Source of the DNA: Clostridia bacterium
Lineage (GTDB): Bacteria; Bacillota; Clostridia; DUPQ01
Length of the DNA stretch: 33,578 bases
Reading direction: 5' to 3'
Assembly (NCBI GenBank): GCA_016929655.1
Contig: JAFGIJ010000002.1
Span: 1-33,578 of the forward strand
The notes below the pieces were generated by a model, which was given only the letters and a program-made list of their open reading frames with translations, was not told the DNA's origin and ran no database searches. The translations under genes and the position numbers were made by a program. Positions 27,996 through 29,587 of this stretch are shown piece after piece. Numbering within the stretch: the first letter of the stretch is position 1; each line of letters begins with the position of its first letter.

Positions 27996-28042
27996 CAAAC
28001 CTATCGAGTAAACACCCCTCGGGTGTTTACTCGATAGGTTTG
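27996..28042. repeat. perfect inverted repeat: 22-bp arms, 3-nt centre
   Basis: CAAACCTATCGAGTAAACACCC-CTC-GGGTGTTTACTCGATAGGTTTG. Confidence 0.97.
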
Positions 28043-28063: not shown

Positions 28064-28092
28064 TTTACAACCGAACATATGTTCGGTATAAT
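28064..28092 (+). promoter_or_regulatory. LexA (SOS)-regulated promoter: TTTACA-N17-TATAAT with LexA box ACCGAACATATGTTCGGT (28070-28087)
   Basis: Matches Gram-positive LexA box CGAAC-N4-GTTCG exactly; box fills the -35/-10 spacer. Confidence 0.88.
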
Positions 28093-28113
28093 TGAATGTA
28101 CAGAGGAACTTGT

Positions 28114-28377
28114 ATGAAGCTTTTAATGAAAAATGTTGATATGATATGTGTAAGTACGCGTGAAGGAAGGATCTCTCCCCTTAAATTCAGGCTGCCTGAT
28201 GAAAGGGGCGGTCACTCTGTTGTAAAGATTGATCGTGTCTTAAAACGTGACGAACAGAAAATTGCAGGCAATCGAATGCTGGTTTATACAGTACAGAGCC
28301 TTATAAATAACATTGAAACTGTATATGAAATGAAGTATGAGGTCGCCACCTGCAAGTGGTATATTTCCAAGCTTTAG
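28114..28377 (+). CDS. small SOS-regulated protein of unknown function (87 aa)
   Basis: MKLLMKNVDMICVSTREGRISPLKFRLPDERGG...KYEVATCKWYISKL; start moved from 28096 because 28096 sits at the predicted transcription start; GAGGA RBS precedes 28114. Confidence 0.7.
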   Translation: MKLLMKNVDMICVSTREGRISPLKFRLPDERGGHSVVKIDRVLKRDEQKIAGNRMLVYTVQSLINNIETVYEMKYEVATCKWYISKL

Positions 28378-29315: not shown

Positions 29316-29450
29316 ATAAAATCCTTTACTTGATTTTGGTTTGGATGCCTGATCATATATTTGATCTGAAGCCACCTGAATCTTGCTTCTCACATATCAT
29401 TATAACTTTCAGACTTACTCTTTGCAATTCAAACACCCTTGAATCCATGC

Positions 29451-29498
29451 CTAATAATTACGACAGACGTAAATATTTACGTCTGTCGTAATTATTAG
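29451..29498. repeat. perfect 48-bp palindrome
   Basis: CTAATAATTACGACAGACGTAAATATTTACGTCTGTCGTAATTATTAG equals its own reverse complement. Confidence 0.98.
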
Positions 29499-29587
29499 GG
29501 GTAAAAGTATTGGATTTTTGACAGATTGGTTGAAATGCAGATATTACAGGGATACAATGGTTGCAGCAAATATACGGGGGTACACAA

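Follow-up and report, generated by a model that had tools for sequence, protein, structure and literature searches.

An SOS-boxed clostridial gene probably encodes a divergent standalone ImuB-C protein set apart from a Y-family polymerase

Results

A LexA operator within the promoter of a small gene

The window, i.e., the whole stretch of 33,578 nucleotides analysed here, contains a single-gene unit, with the following features in and around it.

27996–28042, no strand assigned: perfect inverted repeat (22 bp, 3-nt loop), immediately preceding the SOS promoter
28064–28069, plus strand: -35 hexamer TTTACA, read directly; most homologous promoters carry the same hexamer
28070–28087, no strand assigned: LexA operator ACCGAACATATGTTCGGT, an 18-bp perfect palindrome with its core at 28072–28085; the same type of box lies at lexA, recA, uvrB and the Y-family polymerase gene
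28087–28092, plus strand: -10 hexamer TATAAT, separated from TTTACA by a 17-bp spacer
28102–28107, plus strand: AGAGGA, read directly, a probable ribosome-binding site
28114–28377, plus strand: gene for an 87-aa protein, probably a divergent standalone ImuB-C (DUF6504-like), based on its family, a profile match and an all-beta model

The core of the LexA box, CGAACATATGTTCG, falls within the TTTACA/TATAAT spacer, and direct reading confirms the perfect palindrome that an earlier note had placed there, ahead of the 87-aa open reading frame. The exact core CGAACNNNNGTTCG occurs once in the window. The reading frame runs from the ATG at 28114 to the stop codon at 28375–28377; a second in-frame ATG, at 28096, coincides with or precedes the point where transcription is expected to begin, making the start at 28114 the likely one. 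The inverted repeat, which separates the SOS promoter from a divergent uroporphyrinogen-decarboxylase-like gene, was not seen in the fetched loci of relatives and may lie outside the SOS unit.

Elsewhere in the window, a 50-bp perfect palindrome (29450–29499; core ACGACAGACGTAAATATTTACGTCTGTCGT) belongs to a set repeated in the genome, with nine exact copies of the core and one with two mismatches, compared with none for the control. Further sites of the core in this genome (G000) are C89:1705, C121:27459, C134:1221, C142:20725, C158:17594, C161:3058, C190:6701, C191:48953 and C25:7132, and one copy adjoins uvrB.

The SOS system of the host

LexA is encoded on contig C136 (TIGR00498, 221.7 bits, twice the cut-off) and, on reading, its sequence contains the Ala-Gly pair together with the Ser and Lys typical of a self-cleaving LexA. 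A genome scan for further LexA boxes located three upstream of lexA and one each before uvrB, a pcrA-like helicase gene, an operon encoding a Y-family polymerase and an SRAP protein, and a weakly matching GyrI-like gene; recA is likewise preceded by a box (AGAACAAATGTTCT). The presence of LexA and of a boxed recA, together with the boxes at lexA, uvrB, the helicase and the polymerase, amounts to an ordinary Gram-positive SOS system. The box before the GyrI-like small protein gene is exact (CGAACATTTGTTCG; locus L003, C147:2941–2954), and the Pfam match of that gene is weak, below the cut-off. GyrI/SbmC of E. coli is also the product of an SOS gene.

The core pattern has only ten fixed bases, and an exact match in a genome of 2.2 Mb is therefore unremarkable alone. 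Two exact sites were found, and the total of 19 sites with at most one mismatch does not exceed the 53 obtained with the reversed control pattern, so that we make no claim of genome-wide enrichment. What argues against chance is, in our reading, the placement and conservation of the box rather than its base count. Given the operator, the LexA/RecA pair and the same box on other SOS genes, the 87-aa gene is an SOS gene by sequence, and DNA damage probably induces it. The view of the earlier note that this is a LexA-controlled orphan gene thus gains support from a LexA with cleavage site and catalytic residues, from the boxes on recA and the usual SOS genes, and from the conservation of the box at homologues, described below.

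A clostridial family usually encoded in polymerase operons

Homologues were detected in 22 of the 99 genomes searched (own genome counted) and, across the phylum, in 44 of 399; the contig scan used a closer subset of sequences, the full 21-row alignment being insufficiently conserved. The protein belongs to an unnamed clostridial family, of which named genomes yielded 57 loci, in Clostridia, Tissierellia, Desulfosporosinus and others. At 41 of these loci the small gene lies directly downstream of a Y-family polymerase gene. Hence, the assertion that the gene stands alone without a DNA polymerase holds at the window locus but not family-wide: homologues mostly occupy the second position in an operon headed by a Y-family polymerase gene, and the window gene is best described as a piece split off from an SOS unit of a known kind.

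LexA control is conserved regardless of gene adjacency. A box lies just upstream of the polymerase in 27 of the 41 linked loci (a few of the remainder are cut by contig ends), and 14 of the 16 unlinked loci carry a separate box no more than 250 nt from the small gene, compared with about 0.02 expected per such interval; the two exceptions are a locus at a contig end and one with a polymerase slightly further upstream. Thermoclostridium caenicola (L045), a cultivable species, is among the bacteria with an unlinked copy. With a promoter criterion of at most two mismatches in twelve, the box sits within the promoter spacer in 38 of 42 cases, the window included, versus 0.95% of random positions. 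Within the genus of the window, the proteins are 80–83% identical, and promoter and operator are intact in all three species.

Four genomes of family f62 (G101, G237, G408 and G442) carry two to six copies of a small ImuB-C-like gene, some of them broken. Relatives of the small gene occur on the viral contigs L224 (4001–4249), L225 and L226; on L224 the gene follows amidase and holin genes, and on L225 a LexA-like box, CGAACAGGTGTTTG, precedes it.

Distant relationship to ImuB-C

Scans of the 87-aa protein against Pfam (the PF20114 model included), NCBIfam and PHROGs returned no match, and PDB sequence searches yielded nothing credible. Thus, the claim that the protein has no recognised domain stands for these collections, but not for profile–profile comparison. 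Aligned with 30 standalone DUF6504 proteins (hhalign), the family matched end to end over 76 columns with a probability of 95.4%, an E value of 1.8e-8 and a score of 47.6, whereas none of 200 column shuffles scored above 18.7 and reversing the profile gave 11.0. These DUF6504 proteins in turn matched the ImuB C-terminus at 96.4%, and plasmid-borne ImuB proteins terminate in Pfam DUF6504. Direct comparison with the C-termini of six proteobacterial ImuB proteins was collinear and not significant; the relationship to ImuB is therefore distant and runs through the standalone DUF6504 step.

The AlphaFold model of the protein is all-beta with eight strands (pLDDT 89.4), and a PDB fold search with this model gave no match at E<=0.001. 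ImuB-C has been reported as a novel beta-barrel (PMC12926913), with which an all-beta model lacking a PDB match would be in line. Trp82, Lys2, Lys6 and Lys86 are invariant in 48 sequences. In the description by Aravind and co-workers, ImuB-C is a mostly beta domain that stands alone, measures some 80 residues, carries conserved Lys or other basic residues besides a C-terminal Trp, and is tied to SOS polymerases (PMC3765255), and Timinskas and Venclovas noted ImuB-C beside YqjH-type polymerases in Clostridia (PMC6511836). The 87-aa protein is probably a divergent standalone ImuB-C, a distant relative of the ImuB tail domain. It remains uncharacterised experimentally, as had been stated earlier, but its family can now be named.

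A phylum search with the DUF6504 model retrieved many standalone proteins, and 11 of 30 fetched DUF6504 loci have a Y-family polymerase beside the gene. Only two genomes (G308 and G211) are listed with both the window family and DUF6504, from 44 and 110 positives, respectively; as the samples were not identical, this only hints at the two families replacing one another. No DUF6504 relatives were found in the viral contigs.

Polymerase tails and the partner in the genus

All 41 linked polymerases end in an SGI.P..GGV..EYPMMSS.L-type tail (GGV..YPMMSSxL-like), located right after the RecA-like motif, whereas the DUF6504-linked polymerases mostly end in SRREQMLxFxDP instead. The different tails of the two polymerase groups suggest a docking site. 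Family f7 shows a clear operon split: the small gene is unlinked, and the canonical-tail polymerase of the same genome has a LexA box of its own and falls inside the clade of linked polymerases.

In the genome of the window, the gene for the LexA-boxed Y-family polymerase resides on contig C10 and is directly followed by the SRAP gene (L040 2717–3289), with which it apparently forms an operon. This SRAP-linked enzyme, with the tail THKKYPKIKPNIMNGA, is the only LexA-controlled polymerase found in the genus and retains a YP-containing version of the tail; no canonical-tail polymerase was found in three members of the genus, whose genomes are 86–90% complete. As the polymerases found there lack the canonical tail, the partner of the small protein in this genus is uncertain. 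In genome G058 the canonical tail is found on an SRAP-linked polymerase and the small gene is unlinked, which makes a partnership with the SRAP-linked polymerase plausible. A search of the window genome (89% complete) found no DnaE2, only one DnaE and one PolC.

Discussion

Collectively, we consider it likely that the 87-aa protein is a free-standing accessory subunit of the ImuB-C type that serves an SOS Y-family polymerase, encoded away from the polymerase and still co-regulated with it. LexA would occupy the palindrome in the promoter spacer and block transcription; upon DNA damage, RecA-stimulated self-cleavage of LexA would release the gene together with the unlinked polymerase on contig C10. 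The small all-beta protein would then join the polymerase, in this genus presumably the SRAP-linked one and probably at the C-terminal tail beside the RecA-like motif, and help it to act at stalled forks, which may promote lesion bypass. The deletion of yqjX, which encodes an analogous small SOS subunit in B. subtilis, had a small effect only (PMC6511836), which counts against this explanation.

An extension of the accessory-subunit reading, which we put forward tentatively, is that ImuB-C clades and polymerase tails form matched pairs; since clades and tail types pair up, the tail would be the docking site. The free SOS subunit of the genus might then serve the SRAP-linked polymerase and possibly link it, in a genome with no DnaE2 found, to the replicative polymerases through their PHP domain.

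Several alternatives have to be weighed. Rather than being a dedicated polymerase subunit, the protein could be induced by damage to bind DNA, recognise lesions and serve several repair pathways, a role proposed for ImuB-C (PMC3765255). The lack of a linked polymerase at the window locus and the conserved lysines fit such a factor, as do the neighbours of homologues elsewhere, with a DNA ligase-like gene nearby on a plasmid and a methyladenine-glycosylase-family gene adjoining on a phage-like contig. Nevertheless, the tight genomic association with a single group of Y-family polymerases and the matched tails argue for a polymerase partner, and we regard the lesion-binding factor as a less probable, if credible, alternative. 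It is rather unlikely that the gene is a remnant, kept in the genus without a working partner after the original polymerase was lost. The failure to find a canonical-tail polymerase in the genus speaks for such a loss, but the high identity within the genus, the intact promoter and operator in three species, the YP-containing tail of the SRAP-linked polymerase and the arrangement in G058 speak against it.

Small stand-alone SOS effector genes occur in other bacteria, but an effector of a different kind, e.g., a cell-division inhibitor or a toxin, is hard to reconcile with the family context, the ImuB-C profile match and the predicted all-beta fold and is thus very improbable. Slimmer still are the chances of a YolD/YqjX-type (UmuD-analogue) subunit, the other small SOS partner of Gram-positive Y-family polymerases. 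Such subunits follow the same genomic logic of a small SOS gene beside or unlinked from the polymerase, and S. aureus has an unlinked YolD with a LexA site (PMC6511836), but the 87-aa protein has no Pfam match. A profile comparison with 20 YolD (PF08863) proteins gave a probability of 0.2%, refuting a YolD identity at the sequence level.

Among known systems, the standalone ImuB-C proteins (PF20114, DUF6504; GSU0042 type, PMC3765255) are closest to the window protein in their length of about 80 residues, all-beta structure (a prediction for the window protein), C-terminal Trp and basic residues, and they too are usually encoded beside an SOS Y-family polymerase. The window protein, however, is too divergent for the Pfam model, its gene forms a unit by itself under a separate LexA promoter, and the polymerases linked to its family bear a different C-terminal tail. 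The C-terminal domain of ImuB, from the ImuA-ImuB-DnaE2 mutasome, is related to the family through DUF6504 profiles, but the window protein lacks a fused inactive Y-family polymerase, and no DnaE2 was found in its genome. The unlinked YolD of S. aureus (SACOL1986; PMC6511836) is likewise a small polymerase partner encoded apart, with both genes under LexA control; its sequence, however, is unrelated.

Thus, the kind of protein is already known and the window adds a little-known member, the noteworthy aspects being that its gene is co-regulated although unlinked and that the polymerases have matched tails. Few parts of the bacterial mutagenesis machinery are understood as poorly as ImuB-C. A separate, SOS-controlled ImuB-C of 87 aa, missed by every public family model tried and accompanied by a candidate docking tail, would offer a testable system for studying ImuB-C without DnaE2, and 'hypothetical' SOS genes in many Clostridia can now be named.
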